Source: Bdellovibrionota bacterium | GTDB taxonomy: Bacteria; Bdellovibrionota; Bdellovibrionia; Bdellovibrionales; JAEYZS01 | NCBI GenBank assembly: GCA_040386775.1 | Contig: JAZKEU010000017.1 | Span: 157,395 to 214,782 of the forward strand | Length of the DNA stretch: 57,388 nt | Direction: 5' to 3' | Part shown: piece by piece, positions 6,684 to 55,671 of the stretch | How positions within the stretch are numbered: position 1 is the first letter of the stretch | Layout of the letters: the number at the start of each line of letters is the position of its first letter | Made by a program: the position numbers and the translations under genes | Notes under the pieces: generated by a model | Seen by the model: the letters and a program-made list of their open reading frames with translations, nothing else | Told to the model about the DNA's origin: nothing | Database searches by the model: none

Positions 6684-6740
6684 AAAGACATCTTTAGGAT
6701 GCAAAACCTTTAAAGGTCGTTTGCGGGTGAAGATGTCTTT
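6684..6740 (+). promoter_or_regulatory. RNA hairpin covering the start codon of the next gene
   Basis: AAAGACATCTT (6684-6694) is the exact reverse complement of AAGATGTCTTT (6730-6740). The 3' arm contains the ATG at 6733 and runs into a T-rich stretch. Inside the 35-nt loop, GCAAA pairs with TTTGC and CCTTTAAAGG is self-complementary, so the whole 57 nt can fold into one nested structure. It could act as a terminator for the HPF-like gene, or as translational control (for example an RNA thermometer) of the gene at 6733. Confidence 0.5.
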
Positions 6741-7776
6741 TTTTATTAAATTCTCAGTTATAATTATTTTCCTTATTCAGTCTATCCATGTGTATGCGCA
6801 TGATGGAGATGGTTATCAAAAACCCCCTCAAGACGTAAAATCACTGTTGGATCAATTTCATCACGACATTGAACACGGTGAGGACAGTGAAAATAAAACT
6901 AAACTCAATTCAGTGATGAGCCAGTGGCTTGCTAATTTCAATTTGGTTCGCATTTCTATGGATGTACATCGATCAGTGCAGATGAAGTATCATCAAGATG
7001 ATGGAAAAAATGAATATATCAAAAACTTTCCAGTTTTGGCTTCGTTTTATTTTTTATCTCATACAATAGAAGTTTTAAGTGGACCAATGGGTGTTTATTT
7101 GGCTTCGGAATTAGGAATGGGATCTGCTGCAAAAATGATGATTGGTACGGTCGGTGCGATCATTACTATTCCGGGTTTAGATCCCCTTTGCATTTTATTA
7201 TTTGCGATAAGTCCTTTAAAGCCTGTTCAAAGAATGATGACAGGAATTCGCATAGTGGCCGTTAAAATTTCGGGAGGAATTTCAAATCGGTTTCATTTAA
7301 AGCAAGCGATGGCTAAAATTTTTGAAAATAAAGATCGCTTAAGCGAAATCATAAATAATTCTAGCGATACAAATATGAACTTAATTTATGATGCAAAAAG
7401 AGATGTGATGCTTAGGCAAATGATCGTAAAATCTCCTGAGGGAAAAGCTTATTTGGCTTTAACATTCGATCAAAAAAATGGAAAAACTTGGCTGGAGTCA
7501 CTTGAAGTTTTAAATCAGACAATTCTCAATCAAAACAAAAAATCTCTTGATCTCATATTGAATCAATTCAATTGGAGCGTGAGATATGCCTTAAGTAAAG
7601 CAATCAAAAGCCCTCGTAAGACCTTCTATACGCACTCAGTTTCAACGACAAGTAATTCGACCAACATCCAGTTCAAAGACTATGCAGTCCTTTTAAAACC
7701 AAAAATAAGGCTGAGATCGCAGGCTCAAAATGAGACCGAAAAGGATACCGTGGCTTGCAAAGGTCTATTTCAATAA
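6733..7776 (+). CDS. exported membrane-associated protein ending in CKGLFQ
   Basis: A 347-residue protein of no recognised family. ATG 6733 starts the signal peptide MSFFIKFSVIIIFLIQ...VYA|HDGDG; the frame is open from TTG 6721. The mature N-terminus is His/Asp-rich (HDGDGY, FHHDIEHGED). Around residues 115-175 there are one or two hydrophobic segments (MMIGTVGAIITIPGLDPLC, ILLFAISPL), suggesting membrane insertion. The C-terminal half is hydrophilic and helical. The last six residues, CKGLFQ, match the terminal C-x-x-[LI]-F motif shared with the proteins ending at 25376, 31101, 55072 and 55671. Its start codon lies inside the hairpin at 6684-6740. Function unknown. Confidence 0.75.
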   Translation: MSFFIKFSVIIIFLIQSIHVYAHDGDGYQKPPQDVKSLLDQFHHDIEHGEDSENKTKLNSVMSQWLANFNLVRISMDVHRSVQMKYHQDDGKNEYIKNFPVLASFYFLSHTIEVLSGPMGVYLASELGMGSAAKMMIGTVGAIITIPGLDPLCILLFAISPLKPVQRMMTGIRIVAVKISGGISNRFHLKQAMAKIFENKDRLSEIINNSSDTNMNLIYDAKRDVMLRQMIVKSPEGKAYLALTFDQKNGKTWLESLEVLNQTILNQNKKSLDLILNQFNWSVRYALSKAIKSPRKTFYTHSVSTTSNSTNIQFKDYAVLLKPKIRLRSQAQNETEKDTVACKGLFQ

Positions 7777-16726: not shown

Positions 16727-17293
16727 TTGAAAATTGGCACAATTCTTTTAATTCTATTGGTATTAGGAACTCTCAGTTCTCAGGCAAATGAAGGTTTGCA
16801 ATGTTCCTCTCTTTTTAGAGAGGGTCCTAAGGAGCAGCCTCATTTTGAAAATGGTCATAATGTACCTCTTAAAAATATTATGCAAAAAATGAAAGAATTA
16901 GAAGATAACATCAGAGAATTTGTAGATGGTCTCACACCGAAAAATTTCAGTAAGTATATTCCTGACAATTCTGCAAAGTATAGGAATCTCGAAGCCCTAA
17001 AAGAAATTTTAGATATCGCGGATACATACGAAAAGATCTTAAATCATTTAGTGGAACACTCTGATCACATGATGATGAGTCCCAGAATTCAAATGATTCC
17101 TGCGGAAAAGCGAGAAGCATTTGTTGAAAAATACAAGCAATCCTATGTGAATTATCTTGCCACTTTTCAGAGACTCAAATACAGCCTGGAAAATATGGAA
17201 GGCAAAGATCCTTCCACTTGGAATAATTTAGAGGCGCAAAATATTCTTATGGAGCTGCATGGGCAAATGGGCGCGGCTCATAATAAATTTTAG
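16727..17293 (+). CDS. exported protein with CSSLFR after the signal peptide
   Basis: A 188-residue protein starting at TTG 16727, preceded by GGGGTAA. The signal peptide MKIGTILLILLVLGTLSSQA|N is followed by EGLQCSSLFREG, with the motif Cys at residue 26, about six residues into the mature chain. This matches the C-x-x-L-F-[RQ] motif found at the extreme C-terminus of other exported proteins in the window. The rest is helical with charged residues (MKELEDNIREFVDG) and several His/Met (DHMMMSPRIQM). No known domain is recognised. It overlaps the convergent pseudouridine synthase by 4 nt. Confidence 0.75.
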   Translation: MKIGTILLILLVLGTLSSQANEGLQCSSLFREGPKEQPHFENGHNVPLKNIMQKMKELEDNIREFVDGLTPKNFSKYIPDNSAKYRNLEALKEILDIADTYEKILNHLVEHSDHMMMSPRIQMIPAEKREAFVEKYKQSYVNYLATFQRLKYSLENMEGKDPSTWNNLEAQNILMELHGQMGAAHNKF

Positions 17294-24038: not shown

Positions 24039-25376
24039 ATGTTTAAAATGAAAATATTTGCTTTTGTATTTTTTAGTTTATTTATATGGATGATTGCCAT
24101 TTCTGGGTCTCCAACGGTGATTGCTGTTTTGGATACACCGGTCGATTATTCACACCCCGAAATTCAAGCTGTTCTTGAAGAAGACCTTCTTAAGAATGCA
24201 CAATTTGTTGATGAAAGAGGAGAAGAAAAATCATGGTACGACCTGAACCTCGAAGCCAAAGCTGAATTTGAAAAGAGGTTGAATCAAGAACTTTATGCAG
24301 AGCAGATCGAATATCTAAATGCGATGCACGGATCTACGGAGAGTCGTTCGCAAACGGGCAAGAATTTAAAATTTTTAATTGCTAGAGGGACATTAAAATA
24401 CATATTTTCCCCGAAATACAGATCAAGTTTGAATATTGTAGCTAAGTATCTTCATGGAACTCATGTCGCGGGAATTATGATGAAATCACTGAGTAATGTA
24501 AGACTCATTAGTTTTCCACTCCTTAAAATATCTGAAAAAATGACTCTATCTGATATCCTCAACTACGATCCCGTTCCACAGCGCGAGGAAATGAGGCAGC
24601 AATTCGAGCAGATTTCAAAAATTCTTCAGAGTAACCATGTGCGGGTGGTCAACCTATCTATAGGTACTTCTCATGCATTGTATTTTAAAGAGATTAGGAA
24701 GCGTGCCACACTCGTACACAAAACAGTGTTTCGTAAAAAACTAAGGAATATGTCTAATGAAAGCGCAAAAATTTTCAAGGAAGAGATGATGAGGTTTATT
24801 CGCGCCAATCCCAATTCAGTATTTGTTTTAGGTGCCGGAAATGATAGGCGTGATCTCAGTAAGACGCCAGATCATACCGCAACTATCGAAGCAGAAAATC
24901 TCATTAAGGTTGCTGCGGTCAGTAGAAGTGGTAGTATTGCGCGGTTCTCTAATCACTCACCTTTACTTGTAGACATTGCCGCACGTGGTACCGGGATATC
25001 CAGTGCCATGGCAGGGGGCGGAGAGATACATATGTCGGGTACTTCCCAAGCAGTACCAAAGGTCACGAATGCTCTCGCTCAAATTTTTGAATCTGCTCCG
25101 CAAATTTCAGTTCAAGAAGCTATAGATATGTTATATGAAAAGCATACTAAAGAAAAACCATCGTTAGCAGATTTTGTTGCGAATGGCAGAGTTCTAGCTA
25201 TCGACAGACTTTCTTTATTTCCGCACAGATCTTCATCAGAAAACTTCCGCGCTGAAATGGGTGATGCCCCTTTAGAAGATCTGAAAAGTCTTTTTGACAA
25301 ATATATGGATATAGACGGCCTTTTGCCGCGTGAATCTTCAATTTCAAAAAATGCATGTCACGCTATATTTAGATGA
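24039..25376 (+). CDS. exported subtilase (S8) ending in CHAIFR
   Basis: A 445-residue subtilisin-like serine protease. The catalytic Asp32 is in VIAVLDTP, His139 in HGTHVAG, oxyanion Asn in GAGND and Ser336 in SGTSQAVP. The signal peptide runs directly into the first catalytic strand, so there is no propeptide. Asp to His is about 107 residues apart, far more than the usual 30-40, because of a helical insertion with many acidic residues. The last six residues CHAIFR match the terminal C-x-x-[LI]-F motif. RBS GAGGGAAG precedes ATG 24039 (ATG 24048 is possible). It probably acts outside the cytoplasm; the substrate is unknown. Confidence 0.88.
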   Translation: MFKMKIFAFVFFSLFIWMIAISGSPTVIAVLDTPVDYSHPEIQAVLEEDLLKNAQFVDERGEEKSWYDLNLEAKAEFEKRLNQELYAEQIEYLNAMHGSTESRSQTGKNLKFLIARGTLKYIFSPKYRSSLNIVAKYLHGTHVAGIMMKSLSNVRLISFPLLKISEKMTLSDILNYDPVPQREEMRQQFEQISKILQSNHVRVVNLSIGTSHALYFKEIRKRATLVHKTVFRKKLRNMSNESAKIFKEEMMRFIRANPNSVFVLGAGNDRRDLSKTPDHTATIEAENLIKVAAVSRSGSIARFSNHSPLLVDIAARGTGISSAMAGGGEIHMSGTSQAVPKVTNALAQIFESAPQISVQEAIDMLYEKHTKEKPSLADFVANGRVLAIDRLSLFPHRSSSENFRAEMGDAPLEDLKSLFDKYMDIDGLLPRESSISKNACHAIFR

Positions 25377-28788: not shown

Positions 28789-30174
28789 TTACGGAGTTTT
28801 TTCTAATAATTCTAAAATTTCTGATCGGCTAGGGTAGTTGCCTTCGAGTTTACGAACAGAGGGCAAGCCTAGGACACGAGTAATTTGTTTTATGACAACA
28901 AGTTTTTCTTTTTCAGTTTTTTGAGATGCACTTTCTAATTTTGCACCAATCAGCATATACAGATCTCTAGTAAAATCACTCATGGCAAGAGTATCTTCGA
29001 CCCTTAGTCCTTCTTGGGTACGAACTCTGAATACTCCGTCTTCAGTAATTACGCGTATGTCTCTAGGAAAGTTTGAATGGTAAGGGCGATCTTTTTCTAT
29101 TTCATAGAGTTTTGAGAAAATTCGATGGATAAACTGTGAGAATTGAATTTGCATAACCACATCAGACTTAATGGTCTCAAAGTTTTCAAATACGGCTCCT
29201 TTTTGGGAGGACTTCATAATTGCTTGGTGCGCATAAACACGGATAGAACCTCTAAAGGCGAGTAATTCATCAAGGCTGAGATATTTACTATAGTACCCAA
29301 GCATATTTTTTAAGCTATCTGAAATTTTTTCTGGAATAATCTCTGCATCATAAGGTTTTGCGGAACCACTAATTTTTCTCGATGAAGTCACGTTATGTAT
29401 GAATTCATGGAAGCCAATACTATGTCGAAAGAAAGAATCACTAATCATTATGTCGGGTTGAAGAATAATTTTTCGCTCAGTTTTTGTTTCTGAAAATTTT
29501 CCGTCTAGTTTTTGTATTAAAAGTGAAGCTGGATCAAATACAATATCTAGCTTGTAAGGGGGAAGTTGCCCATTCTTGTACTTTATGGGTTCATAAAGCC
29601 TTCTTGCGATGCGATTAATGTAGTGATTTCCTGTTCTGGCGATAACAATATAAAAAGTATCCTTCTGGTTTTCATGCGTAGAATTATTTCGCACCAATGT
29701 GTGATCTATTCCGATTGCCGATAGAAATTTGTGGGTTCTGAAAATAAGACCCGAAAGTTCATTTTTCATTCTCTGTTGTGCGTGGTTAAGATTTTTAGAA
29801 TTATTTCTTTCTTGCTCTGGGCGGAGGAATGCCTGCTGATTTTTAAGATAGTTTTGAATCTCAACTTGAAGAGGTTTTAGTACAATAAAATAGTGCTTAA
29901 GGGCTTCTTTAAATCTTTGATAGATCTCTTCATGATTCTCACGTTTGCTCGCTTTTATTGGAAGTGAATTGTATCCACCATTTTGCTTGATGACTCTGAC
30001 AACTTCTCGATTAAATTCAAAACCTTCATTGCCCAACTCTTGAGAGATATCGAGAGTAGGTTGGGCATTTCTTGTGTTTTCTAATCTGAATAATGCTTCA
30101 CATGTAGAATTTTGAGCTTCTACTTTAAAAGAAGCAATCAGCAATATCAGACTCAAAACAACAGTATTTTTCAT
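28789..30174 (-). CDS. exported HExxH metallopeptidase with CEALFR after the signal peptide
   Basis: A 461-residue protein. The signal peptide MKNTVVLSLILLIASFKVEA|Q is followed by NSTCEALFRLEN, the C-x-x-L-F-R motif with Cys25 at about mature position 5. Near residue 255, GFHEFIHNV gives an HExxH zinc site. YLSLDELLAFRGSIRVYAHQ, about 45 residues on, offers a Glu third ligand, as in gluzincins. A long helical N-terminal region could be a prodomain. No Shine-Dalgarno sequence precedes ATG 30174. The HExxH context and length do not match a peptidase family I know by name. It probably acts outside the cytoplasm. Confidence 0.75.
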   Translation of the reverse strand: MKNTVVLSLILLIASFKVEAQNSTCEALFRLENTRNAQPTLDISQELGNEGFEFNREVVRVIKQNGGYNSLPIKASKRENHEEIYQRFKEALKHYFIVLKPLQVEIQNYLKNQQAFLRPEQERNNSKNLNHAQQRMKNELSGLIFRTHKFLSAIGIDHTLVRNNSTHENQKDTFYIVIARTGNHYINRIARRLYEPIKYKNGQLPPYKLDIVFDPASLLIQKLDGKFSETKTERKIILQPDIMISDSFFRHSIGFHEFIHNVTSSRKISGSAKPYDAEIIPEKISDSLKNMLGYYSKYLSLDELLAFRGSIRVYAHQAIMKSSQKGAVFENFETIKSDVVMQIQFSQFIHRIFSKLYEIEKDRPYHSNFPRDIRVITEDGVFRVRTQEGLRVEDTLAMSDFTRDLYMLIGAKLESASQKTEKEKLVVIKQITRVLGLPSVRKLEGNYPSRSEILELLEKTP

Positions 30175-30441: not shown

Positions 30442-31101
30442 ATGAAAATCATTTTTGTTTTTTTTGCTTTGATTTTGTTTTATCAAAACTTATCTGCTCT
30501 GCCACCTATACGGGAAGAGTATAGACAAGGTTATAAGCAAACCAGAAGTTTCTTTGCATTTAAAGAAGAAGAATTATTGAAAGAGTCTCTTCGTGATGGT
30601 GCTGTTGATTCCCTAATACCTAAATCTGACGAGACTATCAGAGATTTAATGGCAGTAGGGAGGGCAAGAGCTCCATCATTGTATCCGATGGGAATTTCGA
30701 TGAACGATCCTCAAAATTTACTTCGTGATCTGGAGCTTCTGGTAGAAAAGTTACAGAGAAAAACTCGTATGCCTGATAAGATAGCAACATCCTGGGATGC
30801 TGGCTTGTATCCAAATCGACCTCCTACACATAAAGAAGAAAAAATGCTAGCTCTAGGAGATTACTATCATTGGATTGGTCATATCTATGAAGACAAAGGA
30901 GATTTAGAAAAAGCTTACGAGGCCTTTATAAGATCTCAATATCATTACAGTCAGACAAGACTAAAAAAATCAAGACGTATTGGAGCTCTTGGATTTCCTT
31001 TGGTTCAAGAGCACTCAGAATATCATATGAATAAGATCATTTCTTTAATTAAAGAAGTTGTATGGGCTCATAGTAATGTGAGTTGCCGCTCTTTATTTTA
31101 A
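30442..31101 (+). CDS. exported TPR-like protein ending in CRSLF
   Basis: A 219-residue protein with signal peptide MKIIFVFFALILFYQNLSA|LPP. The mature chain is helical. Around residues 133-175, LGDYYHWIGHIYEDKGDLEKAYEAFIRSQYHY has the TPR pattern of small and large residues, so it may bind other proteins. The last five residues are CRSLF, the terminal motif without the final Q or R. It has the weak RBS TTAGGAAAA. It shares the upstream TGTC-N4-GACA element with the lipoprotein gene at 31244, suggesting common regulation. Function unknown. Confidence 0.75.
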   Translation: MKIIFVFFALILFYQNLSALPPIREEYRQGYKQTRSFFAFKEEELLKESLRDGAVDSLIPKSDETIRDLMAVGRARAPSLYPMGISMNDPQNLLRDLELLVEKLQRKTRMPDKIATSWDAGLYPNRPPTHKEEKMLALGDYYHWIGHIYEDKGDLEKAYEAFIRSQYHYSQTRLKKSRRIGALGFPLVQEHSEYHMNKIISLIKEVVWAHSNVSCRSLF

Positions 31102-51106: not shown

Positions 51107-54100
51107 ATGGGGAATCGTCCGTCGTCTGTGGTGATCGCTTATTTCATTTTAGCTTTCAGTTTGAGTTTAGGAAACTTATCATTCAAAGAATATCATTTCA
51201 AAGTGACTTCTTCATCGGCATTTGCTGACGAAGAAATTTCTAATGATGCTAGACAAGTTTTGGCAAGGCTCTACAATTCGAGTGTTGTTCTCAGTCCTCA
51301 AGATGTTATTAAAATTTCTGTTCTTGAAAAATACAAATTTTATGATGTTGGTGAAATTTTATGGGATCGTTTTGAACTGGAACTCAGAAATATCAATAAT
51401 GATCGCCGAGAATCAAAAGTGGATACTTCAGATATCTTTGAAGCGATTTTTAAAATCGCAGGAAGATTAACGACGCAAGAGCATCGAGCTCAGCTTGAAA
51501 GATGCTTAATAGTTTTGCATGAACAAATGAATTATTTGGAAGCCTTGGCTATTCAAGGTACTGAAGATCAATTGAGAGAGTATTTATCACTTAAGGATTA
51601 TTTTGATACTGTCGAGGAAAACTTAAAAACTCTTGTCGAAAAAGCTCCTAGGTCTAATCTGCCGCATTTACAAAATCCTATCGAAATTCCGAGAAAATCA
51701 AAACCTACAATGTTGCCTGATGGAACTCCGTCTATGGGAATCACCCAAGATGAAGAAATCAAGATTATTACAAGAGAAGAAATTCAAAGCATTAAAGATG
51801 AAATGTCTAAAAAAGTTATTGGTCAACCCGTTGCACTTCAAGCCTTGATTAATATTTTATACGAAACTTACACTTATGGATACGGCAGAGAAAAGCCAAA
51901 AAGACTTTTCTTTTCGGGCACGCCAGGCTCGGGAAAAGATACTTTGGTTAGAGAATTCGCAAACGCCATTCATAAAAGTCCTACCGCTTATCAAGAACAT
52001 GTTTTTGAAGCTCCCATTGCAAAAAGCAATGCTGATTTATGGGCTTTGCAAGGTTCTACTACTGGTCATGTGGGTTCAGAGACAATAACTCCATTCATTA
52101 AGTGGCTAGTAAAACACTCAGGAGGAAAATACCAACTTTTAGAGCCTGGCCCAAATGAAAAATTTCAACCTCATATTATAGAAAATAAAAATTGGTCACC
52201 TGGACAGGTGTTGTCAGGTTATTTCGCTCCGGAAGAATCAGTGCTCTATGTTAACGAAGTGGATAAATGGTCAAAAAACAATATCAACCAATTTCTATTG
52301 AGAGCTATGGAGAAGGGTTATTTTGTCGTCAATAACCCGGGAGCAGGTCTTGATCGGATTTATGTTCCTATCAATATAATTTTCTCATCCAATGACCTCA
52401 TTCCAGATATTGCGGCAAGAGATAAAAGTGGAAAGCGCTATGGACCGCCGCTTTCCATTGAGCAATTGAATGAAAATGTAGTTAGGATTGAGCAAGATCC
52501 CAGTATTTTTAGAAATCGACTCATGAGCGCATCAAGCTCAAAAAGTGATATTGTAACTAGTGATTCTGCTGGTTATTCCGAAGAGTTTATAAATAGATTA
52601 GGAGATCAAGAGCTCATTCCTTTGAGAGTGCTTACACATGAAGATGCAAAAACTATTTTAGGTTTAAATATGGAAACGCTGCAATCAAAGATGAAAAATT
52701 CTTTGGGTGCGTATGCAGGTCTAGAACTAGAGTGGTCCAATGGACTTGTGGATTTTTTATTTGATTTTCAACGTAATGATGAAGAAGGGGCCAGACGTCT
52801 TCAAGCCCGCGTGGATATGGTGGAAAGCACTTTAATGTCTATGATTGAGGAAGAAAAAATCAAACCGCGAGATCTTCCTTTAAAAGTAGCCATGGACATA
52901 GAGAAAAATTCAGATGGTACTACGAATTTGGTTTTAAGAAGAACGGACAATTCAGGTCAAGTGTATGCGCACACCTTGATTGCGGCTACGGTGGCAGAGA
53001 AAAACAAAAACCCGCTCTCTGATGCTGAATTTGCAGATTTGGCAACACTTGGTCGGAGACTGTCTAAGCATGTCTACGGGATAGATCATATCTTAGAAAA
53101 AATTGGGCGCACTATCGCTCTTTCTAAGGATGCCGAAACAAGAAAAAGAGACGGAGTTCAGGAGCATAAGAAGGCCGAAGTTTTCTTTTTATTGGGCCTT
53201 TCTTCTACTGGTAAAACTGAAACTGGAAAGGCGATAGCACGAGAACTTTTCAAAGAAGGCGAGGCGGCTAGAGTCACTATAGATTTTAACAACATTAAGA
53301 CCGTTCAGGATTTAAGAGATGCAGTTCTAGGTACGACTAGTGGTGATAGATTTTATCCTTCCAAGTTCATGCAAGAATACGATAGATTGAATGGCCGAGT
53401 TATTTTCATGTTTGAGGAAATTGCTAATGCGCCCCTCGAAGTTCTAAGAGCTTTATATGATATTTTGGACGAAGCCGTGGTGACATCTTTTGCTGATAAA
53501 AAACCTCGCTCTATGAGCAAAGTGATTATTCTGGCAACGGGTAATGCCGGAGAAGAGTGGTACAAAGGTATTCCAAGAGATCTTTCTTTTGATATCCAGA
53601 TGACAACTATGCGAGATATTTATCAGAAATCCATTGCCGACCAAGATTACCAACGTTTACTTTTAGAAAAATATTTTTCGGAAGCTTTTATCAATAGGGT
53701 AGGGATTGATCGTTTTATGTTCTTTCCACCATTCTCACACCAAAGCATAAGAGAAGTTGCTATTGGCAACTTGCAGGCAGCCATTCAAGATCTAAAACCT
53801 AAAAATGGTCAAAGAGGCTGGAGTATTGGATTTAGAAATCAAGCAGATTACGTTAAGTTGATTGAAACAGTTGAAAATGAGGGGTTTGTTTTAAGAGAGC
53901 AGGGTAGGTCTATTGTTAACTTTGTTAATATGGAAATTAAAAATAAAATAAGATGGGAGCTGCGCAACGGGGGAGTTGCAGACAATGCAAGGGTGCTTAT
54001 CGTTCCTTCTCAGGTCAATGATGAAGAAGTTAAATTTAATCTTATCGTTGAAGGAAGTGCACAAGATCTTTCTTTGAAAGTTAAGCGCCGTAAAGTAGAA

Positions 54101-55072
54101 CCCGAGCCCACGAAAGCAGTTCAGGATATTGCCCTTACGTCATTCCACGAAGCTGGTCATAATTTTCTGATGAAAGTTCTCATGGGGGATAAATTCAAAG
54201 CTACTCGCGTGACCAGAATTCCTGGAGTTTTAATGGATCCATCTGGGCCGATAGCTTATTTGGGTGTCGCGGAAAGCACTATGACTGAAAGTATGAAATA
54301 CAATCGAGAAGGCGTAATTGAAACGCTTGCCAGGATGCTAGGCGGAGATATTGCGGAAACAGTAGTGACTAAAAATGGTAGAAGGCATTCTGGTATTAGT
54401 AATGACATTTTAAGAGCTACAGACCTCGCTCGTGAGGCTGTAGGAGAGTGGGGACTCTCTGACAAATGGGGAAGGCGCGTTGTAAAAGCTGATCAAATGA
54501 ATAGTTTATCAGATGAAGAGAAAAAAATATTCAATAGTGAAGTGGATGTTTTATTGAAAGATGCCAGAGCTTTGGGCGAGGCAATTATCAGAGAGCCGGG
54601 TAACTTTGAAGTCTTTAAAGCGTTAGGCTTGGAAATATTTGCAAAAGGGGATTTAAAAGAAAAAGCCATTGCTGATTTCTACCAAGCGCAAGATTCAAGA
54701 ATTAATTATCCTTCAGATATTTATGCGGTCATTCAATCTTCGAAGGTAAGAATTGAAAAGGATATTAAATCTCCAGAGAACAATGGCCTATTTGTTAAGA
54801 AAAACCAAGCGCATCATAACGTAGAATTTGTAGAAGGTATTGTGTTGCCGAGTGAGTATGCGAGTATAGATACAATTATTGCAGAAGAAAAAAAGGCCGA
54901 ACTTTCTAAAGTTCAATTGCCAAAGAATATACCTATCTTTACAAACTTTAACGTTATCTCTTCTGTGAATCGAACGCATACTCAAGTAAATGGTTCTCAA
55001 GCATCAGTTGCGTTTAAACCTAAGCCGAGCGGAGATTTGCAGGGGCAAACATGCGCTCGATTGTTTCAATAG
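51107..55072 (+). CDS. apparently exported tandem AAA+ ATPase fused to M41 zinc peptidase, tail CARLFQ
   Basis: A 1321-residue protein. N-terminus: a hydrophobic segment at 8-26 and SSSAFA|DEE at 35-43, which reads like an export signal with a long c-region. Residues 45-220 are helical. AAA+ domain 1: Walker A GTPGSGKDT (about 270), Walker B VLYVNEVD (about 380, Asn for Asp), FSSND sensor, EFINRL Arg finger. AAA+ domain 2, ClpB-D2-like: GLSSTGKTET (about 697), VIFMFEEI (about 766), ATGNAG, AFINRV. M41-like peptidase: HEAGH at 1014-1018 and SGISNDILRATDLA with third-ligand Asp about 1099, followed by GEWGLSD as in FtsH. It ends CARLFQ, the terminal motif. GGGGAAAAC precedes ATG 51107. The 55081 gene follows 8 nt later. 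FtsH and ClpA/B are cytoplasm-facing in known cases, so export would be unusual; an uncleaved anchor is the alternative. Confidence 0.88.
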   Translation: MGNRPSSVVIAYFILAFSLSLGNLSFKEYHFKVTSSSAFADEEISNDARQVLARLYNSSVVLSPQDVIKISVLEKYKFYDVGEILWDRFELELRNINNDRRESKVDTSDIFEAIFKIAGRLTTQEHRAQLERCLIVLHEQMNYLEALAIQGTEDQLREYLSLKDYFDTVEENLKTLVEKAPRSNLPHLQNPIEIPRKSKPTMLPDGTPSMGITQDEEIKIITREEIQSIKDEMSKKVIGQPVALQALINILYETYTYGYGREKPKRLFFSGTPGSGKDTLVREFANAIHKSPTAYQEHVFEAPIAKSNADLWALQGSTTGHVGSETITPFIKWLVKHSGGKYQLLEPGPNEKFQPHIIENKNWSPGQVLSGYFAPEESVLYVNEVDKWSKNNINQFLLRAMEKGYFVVNNPGAGLDRIYVPINIIFSSNDLIPDIAARDKSGKRYGPPLSIEQLNENVVRIEQDPSIFRNRLMSASSSKSDIVTSDSAGYSEEFINRLGDQELIPLRVLTHEDAKTILGLNMETLQSKMKNSLGAYAGLELEWSNGLVDFLFDFQRNDEEGARRLQARVDMVESTLMSMIEEEKIKPRDLPLKVAMDIEKNSDGTTNLVLRRTDNSGQVYAHTLIAATVAEKNKNPLSDAEFADLATLGRRLSKHVYGIDHILEKIGRTIALSKDAETRKRDGVQEHKKAEVFFLLGLSSTGKTETGKAIARELFKEGEAARVTIDFNNIKTVQDLRDAVLGTTSGDRFYPSKFMQEYDRLNGRVIFMFEEIANAPLEVLRALYDILDEAVVTSFADKKPRSMSKVIILATGNAGEEWYKGIPRDLSFDIQMTTMRDIYQKSIADQDYQRLLLEKYFSEAFINRVGIDRFMFFPPFSHQSIREVAIGNLQAAIQDLKPKNGQRGWSIGFRNQADYVKLIETVENEGFVLREQGRSIVNFVNMEIKNKIRWELRNGGVADNARVLIVPSQVNDEEVKFNLIVEGSAQDLSLKVKRRKVEPEPTKAVQDIALTSFHEAGHNFLMKVLMGDKFKATRVTRIPGVLMDPSGPIAYLGVAESTMTESMKYNREGVIETLARMLGGDIAETVVTKNGRRHSGISNDILRATDLAREAVGEWGLSDKWGRRVVKADQMNSLSDEEKKIFNSEVDVLLKDARALGEAIIREPGNFEVFKALGLEIFAKGDLKEKAIADFYQAQDSRINYPSDIYAVIQSSKVRIEKDIKSPENNGLFVKKNQAHHNVEFVEGIVLPSEYASIDTIIAEEKKAELSKVQLPKNIPIFTNFNVISSVNRTHTQVNGSQASVAFKPKPSGDLQGQTCARLFQ

Positions 55073-55080
55073 AATGAGGA

Positions 55081-55671
55081 ATGATGATTAGAATTATTTT
55101 AAGTCTTTTGATTTTAATACTTTCGTTTGAGGCTTTAGCCTTACCATCAAGTGATAAAAAAGAGAGGGTTTTAGCAGAGCTCTCTTCTTTATCTACAGAG
55201 GTCGATGTCTATGCATTGCAATCTATAAGGGCTCAGATTACCCAGGAAGAATTAGATATTGTCATGTTTAGGCTTAAAAAAGAAATAGAAAAGATTCCGT
55301 CTATTGATTTAGGAACTCACAATACTTATGACTTAACCTTAATTTATAATTTGATTCAAACTTTATACTACAAAGGTGCGAAAGACTATTTAGCTTCTTT
55401 GGGAGAAATACAGAATTTGGCGAATATAAAATTGGGAGTATTCGCCATATACAATGAACTTTTATCTTATCAAATAGAAAGTTTAATTTTAAGAGCCAAC
55501 ATTGACTTAACCAAAGACAAAATTCAGTTGGTTAGAAGAATAGATCACTTGGATCGCCTTGATTCGCTTATCAATGAGTATAAAAATTCTTTTTTGCCAA
55601 AAATGAATTTGGCAGAGTCCAATGCATACTATTTTGAGCATATGGCCACATGTTCTTATCTATTTAGGTAA
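55081..55671 (+). CDS. small exported partner of the AAA+/M41 protein, tail CSYLFR
   Basis: A 196-residue protein with signal peptide MMIRIILSLLILILSFEALA|LPS. The mature chain is almost entirely amphipathic helices (VLAELSSLSTEVDVYALQSI, IQLVRRIDHLDRLDSLINEY), with one Cys, in the tail. It ends MATCSYLFR, the terminal C-x-x-L-F-R motif. It lies 8 nt after the AAA+/M41 gene, so they are certainly one operon; it may be a subunit, adaptor or inhibitor of that protease. No family recognised. It abuts the convergent zinc-ribbon gene. Confidence 0.75.
   Translation: MMIRIILSLLILILSFEALALPSSDKKERVLAELSSLSTEVDVYALQSIRAQITQEELDIVMFRLKKEIEKIPSIDLGTHNTYDLTLIYNLIQTLYYKGAKDYLASLGEIQNLANIKLGVFAIYNELLSYQIESLILRANIDLTKDKIQLVRRIDHLDRLDSLINEYKNSFLPKMNLAESNAYYFEHMATCSYLFR

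Follow-up and report, generated by a model that had tools for sequence, protein, structure and literature searches.

The window analysed here, a 57,388-nucleotide stretch of a Bdellovibrionota genome, encodes on its plus strand (51107-55072, ATG start) a protein of 1321 amino acids in which ATPase modules and a protease domain stand behind an apparent export signal. ATP is normally confined to the cell interior, which raises the question of where such an enzyme would work.

Domain content of the window protein

From its N-terminus, the protein consists of a signal peptide, a helical N-domain, two AAA+ modules, an M41 peptidase and the tail CARLFQ.

51107..51226, + strand: Sec-type signal peptide, residues 1-40, predicted cleavage between AFA and DEE; hydrophobic core (~8-24) and following AxA read from the sequence, in line with the family-wide pattern
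51227..51646, + strand: N-terminal helical domain, residues ~41-180; AlphaFold helices, pLDDT ~55-75
51764..52906, + strand: AAA+ module 1 (AAA1), residues 220-600, D2-type Hsp100; Walker A GTPGSGKDT, Walker B VNE, pore-loop-like GHVG (Pfam, profiles, alignment)
53024..54115, + strand: AAA+ module 2 (AAA2), residues 640-1003, D2-type Hsp100; Walker A GLSSTGKT, Walker B FEE (Pfam, profiles, alignment)
54113..54826, + strand: M41 zinc peptidase domain, residues 1003-1240, FtsH-like (Pfam, profile)
54146..54160, + strand: HEAGH zinc-binding motif, residues 1014-1018, third ligand D1100 (alignment of members)
55052..55069, + strand: C-terminal cysteine tag CARLFQ, residues 1316-1321, with C1316 (first alignment, family tail count)

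Pfam placed Peptidase_M41 at residues 1010-1163 (E 9e-16) and AAA_2 at residues 692-865 (E 7e-13) above their cut-offs, together with a weak ClpB_D2-small match at residues 509-587 and a Torsin match at residues 224-291 (E 2e-5) that fell just under, with 25.0 bits against a cut-off of 27. With family profiles, AAA1 matched ClpB from ClpB residue 546 onward (E 1e-40), AAA2 matched ClpC residues 495-796 (E 3e-37), and the protease domain matched FtsH (E 7e-30), while the two AAA modules were also alike to each other (hhalign probability 99.8). By these comparisons, both modules resemble the second ATPase (D2) of the class 1 Hsp100 proteins ClpB and ClpC and not the first (D1). An AlphaFold model of residues 43-1242, built from 16 sequences, had a mean pLDDT of 80.5 but a pTM of only 0.51, so that confidence applies to the individual domains but not to how they pack. 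The top Foldseek matches of this model were ClpC, ClpB and Hsp104, with the ClpC/ClpB tandem ATPases at E ~1e-17, and between its AAA modules the model lacked a long pair of helices of the kind that forms the ClpB middle domain. The preliminary description had proposed tandem ClpB-like AAA+ modules and an FtsH-type peptidase in one chain; Pfam and the profiles bear out two Hsp100-type modules followed by M41, and the structural matches bear out the tandem ATPases, but the order is not ClpB-like since both modules are of the D2 type.

Three known groups of machines share parts of this architecture. FtsH and the i-AAA and m-AAA proteases have the same M41 domain C-terminal to AAA+, with HEXXH and a third-ligand Asp, but FtsH combines one FtsH-type AAA with a retained transmembrane anchor and cytoplasmic domains, whereas the window family has two D2-type Hsp100 modules, a signal peptide that is of the cleavable type as judged from sequence, and a terminal Cys tag. 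The same genome codes for a separate, ordinary FtsH of 672 aa. ClpC and ClpA, which work with ClpP, and ClpB/Hsp104 carry the same tandem of two AAA+ modules per chain and include the best structural matches; they have D1 followed by D2, with a long middle domain in ClpB, whereas the window protein has D2-D2 with no D1 found, a fused M41-type protease, and an export signal. Torsins likewise have an Hsp100-type AAA+ that follows an N-terminal export signal and resides outside the cytosol, and they had been put forward as a precedent; the parallel is a loose one, since AAA1 does match the Torsin model but below cut-off and less well than it matches ClpB/ClpC D2, and since torsins are single-module, ER-resident proteins without a protease. 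We know of no family with the order D2-D2-M41, and a literature search that covered few subscription journals found no published description of this architecture or of the tag.

Distribution of the family and conservation of its active sites

The architecture, first recognised in this single chain, proved on searching other genomes to belong to a phylum-wide family. Thirteen relatives at ~30-40% identity were found in 60 near genomes, together with further distant ones, and a search by profile detected it in ~42 of the order's 141 genomes and ~57 of the phylum's 369, by a manual row count that includes partial copies, several MAG copies being cut off at contig ends or interrupted by a shift of frame. 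Members are scattered over many taxonomic families and missing from most genomes of the phylum, and some have a single AAA+ module ahead of M41 (L128, L139). The apparent absence of the family from other phyla comes from a light sampling. A scan of genome contigs for the architecture returned ordinary FtsH proteins only, and a scan of IMG/VR gave matches to the AAA2 region only and no full architecture. An exported double-AAA protein in which no M41 was detected (L141, 2427-5081, tail CSRYFH) is encoded in a genome of the window's own taxonomic family.

Over 63 aligned sequences, gaps set aside, the Walker lysines are invariant (K277 in 57/57 and K703 in 58/58), as is the Walker B glutamate E771 (59/59), and the zinc site is nearly so (H1014 60/60, E1015 59/60, H1018 60/61, D1100 59/59). 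AAA1 keeps G-x-x-G-x-G-K; the close group has a non-standard GKDT in Walker A and NE in Walker B, which counts against the role proposed below, remoter members have GKT or GKS in Walker A, and the pore loop reads GYVG in most close members versus GHVG in the window protein. Retention of both ATPase sites over such a distance in an exported enzyme indicates that it very probably meets ATP.

Export signal and topology

Where the N-terminus is intact, almost every member begins with a hydrophobic segment, and a strict AxA site follows it in 34/49 members, compared with 3/31 of the first segments of polytopic proteins from the same genome (Fisher p 9e-8, a value that is only indicative because the rows are related). 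Signal peptides were judged by simple rules rather than by a trained predictor, with mechanical ORF starts, and the automatic rule placed the cleavage of the window protein earlier than residue 40, at a less likely site. In the members scanned, no further membrane span was found, save for one borderline segment in L007. The mature chains contain 1.35 Cys per 1000 residues, compared with ~3 in FtsH and 9.9 in cytosolic proteins. Together with the export-linked terminal Cys described below, these features uphold the export signal proposed at the outset, and export of the family is strongly supported at the level of sequence.

If the N-terminus were instead an uncleaved anchor, the ATPase and protease would lie in the cytoplasm of the producer, as in FtsH. 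The N-region of the window protein is low in positive charge and its cleavage site is late, which counts in favour of this, but the excess of AxA sites, the occurrence of tags behind AxA in unrelated proteins and the scarcity of Cys all speak against it; an N-out anchor was therefore rejected, and we consider a cytoplasmic location very improbable. A lipoprotein signal, with a lipobox Cys at mature +1, was rejected as well, as the Cys is C-terminal in this family and the N-terminal tags of other proteins lie a few residues past AxA.

A terminal cysteine in the protease family

The CARLFQ tail, listed among the parts of the chain in the preliminary description, is no minor detail but the most conserved feature of the family outside the catalytic sites. 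C1316 is among the 30 invariant columns of the first alignment, and in every one of the 58 members that extend into the protease domain and end at their own stop codon a Cys lies within the last 30 residues, whereas 1.6% of 30-residue windows drawn at random from these chains contain one. This Cys, which is followed by 1-30 residues, is usually the last or only Cys of the chain, and in 33/56 chains it is the sole Cys of the mature protein.

The nearest known tag is MYXO-CTERM (TIGR03901), likewise an invariant near-C-terminal Cys on Sec-exported proteins of a predatory phylum, which is predicted to be lipidated and serves surface sorting (PMC11980579). That precedent and the sole-Cys architecture would suit a protein that is lipidated or otherwise anchored through its Cys on the outer membrane or surface, where it would process proteins with possibly little use of ATP. 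MYXO-CTERM requires a transmembrane helix and an Arg cluster after the Cys, however, neither of which was found in the members scanned, and the window tag also occurs at mature N-termini; membership was rejected on the lack of helix and Arg cluster. With the near-invariant ATPase residues also speaking against an ATP-free role, we regard surface anchoring as improbable.

The C-x-x-[LI]-F tag across the genome

A census of 832 kb of the 2.86-Mb genome found C-x-x-[LIM]-F at the mature N-terminus of 13/256 and at the C-terminus of 6/256 exported-type proteins, with 0.26 expected from its interior frequency in a calculation that treats related sequences as independent. The tag was absent from 289 cytosolic proteins, and control motifs with shifted spacing or with S for C gave no comparable excess in the same sample. 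Exported proteins with a single mature Cys carry it at one end of the chain or the other in 26 of 36 cases (3.8 expected). In samples of other genomes the tag was absent from G015 and G183, related forms such as C-x-x-L-L were present in G129 and G010, and CESVF and CARVF in G062, indicating that lineages differ in the precise form of the tag. Tags are concentrated in the window, which has 7 of ~20 strict cases in 7% of the sample (binomial p 0.0003, assuming independence of related sequences). Its seven tagged exported genes are the protease gene at 51107 and the following six, and they are not accounted for by a common operon.

6721..7776, + strand: exported protein, 351 aa, C-terminal tag CKGLFQ
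16727..17293, + strand: exported protein, 188 aa, N-terminal tag CSSLFR directly behind the signal peptide
24039..25376, + strand: exported subtilase (S8), 445 aa, C-terminal tag CHAIFR at 25356-25373
28789..30174, - strand: exported protein, 461 aa, FHEFIH motif, possible metallopeptidase (no convincing Pfam match), N-terminal tag CEALFR behind the signal peptide
30442..31101, + strand: exported TPR-like protein, 219 aa, C-terminal tag CRSLF at 31084-31098
55081..55671, + strand: exported protein, 196 aa, 8 bases downstream of the protease gene, tail CSYLFR at 55651-55668

The 196-aa neighbour has one detectable homolog in 140 genomes, and this homolog lies directly downstream of a family member in G001 (L044) and ends in CMKFFGLL.

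Tagged ATP-dependent enzymes and the site of action

Several other proteins with the same export-plus-tag signature are of ATP-dependent types, namely amidoligases, amidoligase/ATP-grasp fusions, a possible kinase and a permuted ATP-grasp neighbour. An exported Amidoligase_2 protein (E 6.7e-15) has the tail CAPLFAH, and among exported non-lipoprotein amidoligases complete at the C-end, 8/9 have a terminal Cys (from this genome and G002, G007, G014, G041, G062, G073 and G105), L222 being the one without, while four cytosolic amidoligases lack it. Two amidoligase relatives fused to ATP-grasp (R2K) carry a signal peptide and C-terminal CEKVFN (L211, 1441-3903) or CGRVFS (L213, 214-2496). The possible kinase, a 218-aa exported protein (L061, 14120-14776), has a glycine-rich loop and other kinase-like residues behind N-terminal CASLF, and has a 29%-identical homolog, the tags of the pair being CASLF and CQSIF; with a Pfam E of 0.006 and a two-sequence model at pLDDT 36, its assignment is weak. 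The permuted ATP-grasp protein has a signal peptide and lies between two divergent double-AAA protease copies (L105, 7398-10595).

Large exported partners, some with N-terminal tags, adjoin several family members. Directly downstream of two distant members (L047 10459-13629, L129 5823-8001) lies a large exported protein with an N-terminal C-x-x-L-L/F tag and an invariant GG..DxD, which in L047 also has an FGE-sulfatase domain. A nucleotidyltransferase reading of this partner stays at the level of the GG..DxD motif; PDB profiles and NCBIfam gave it no support.

The occurrence of one signature on unrelated ATP-dependent enzymes supports action in a place where ATP exists, such as a foreign cytoplasm, and the need of such enzymes for ATP is the ground for proposing that destination. 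The tagged set also includes the subtilase and alpha/beta hydrolases, which need no ATP and would work outside cells too, and this counts against a cytoplasmic destination.

The main alternative is a site of action other than an intact cytoplasm, namely the periplasm of predator or prey or the lumen of damaged prey, with ATP leaked from the prey as the energy source. The prey in which Bdellovibrio grows acquires a leaky membrane, and the predator can import prey ATP. A Sec signal alone suffices for Bdellovibrio to release a reporter into the medium (PMC12622784), and the many hydrolases among the tagged proteins would be at home in such a setting. Free ATP would be transient there, however, the family occurs in many lineages beyond those of known lifestyle, and the kinase-like and amidoligase enzymes fit less easily, so that we consider this alternative unlikely.

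Proposed role of the family

We favour, at a probability of roughly 0.6, an exported, tagged, ATP-driven unfoldase-protease that works in a compartment of another cell in which ATP is present, namely prey or host cytoplasm. The sequence analyses above support its architecture, its signal for export, the conservation and enrichment of its tag, and the integrity of its catalytic residues. The chain would be made with a Sec signal peptide, pass the inner membrane and be cut at AxA, and it carries the terminal single-Cys tag (C-x-x-L-F) common to other exported proteins. The protein presumably forms a hexameric double ring, in which two stacked D2-type Hsp100 rings would unfold substrates and thread them into an FtsH-type zinc protease ring, making it in effect ClpCP as one polypeptide. 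The tag likely directs the protein to a post-Sec step or serves as the modification site for that step. Conservation of the ATPase and protease sites across the phylum suggests that the work place is most likely an ATP-containing compartment outside the producer, which for a source organism that is probably predatory would be prey or host cytoplasm.

More tentatively, a phylum-wide route may sort Sec-exported proteins by a terminal single-Cys C-x-x-[LIV]-F, at the mature N-terminus or the C-terminus, and send ATP-dependent enzymes into prey or host cytoplasm, the double-ring protease being the most widespread of those seen in this analysis. Cargo might be tethered through its Cys by a thioester, a lipid or a disulfide, a covalent link that would be released once the destination is reached. 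The secreted effectors of bacteria that invade or attack other cells similarly include exported enzymes with ATP-dependent folds; the proteins considered here are marked by a Sec signal and a terminal Cys motif. An exported ATP-driven protease would be an exception to the usual confinement of AAA+ machines to the place of ATP production, and the shared terminal Cys motif would offer a way to catalogue the effectors of these bacteria and to trace their delivery machinery.
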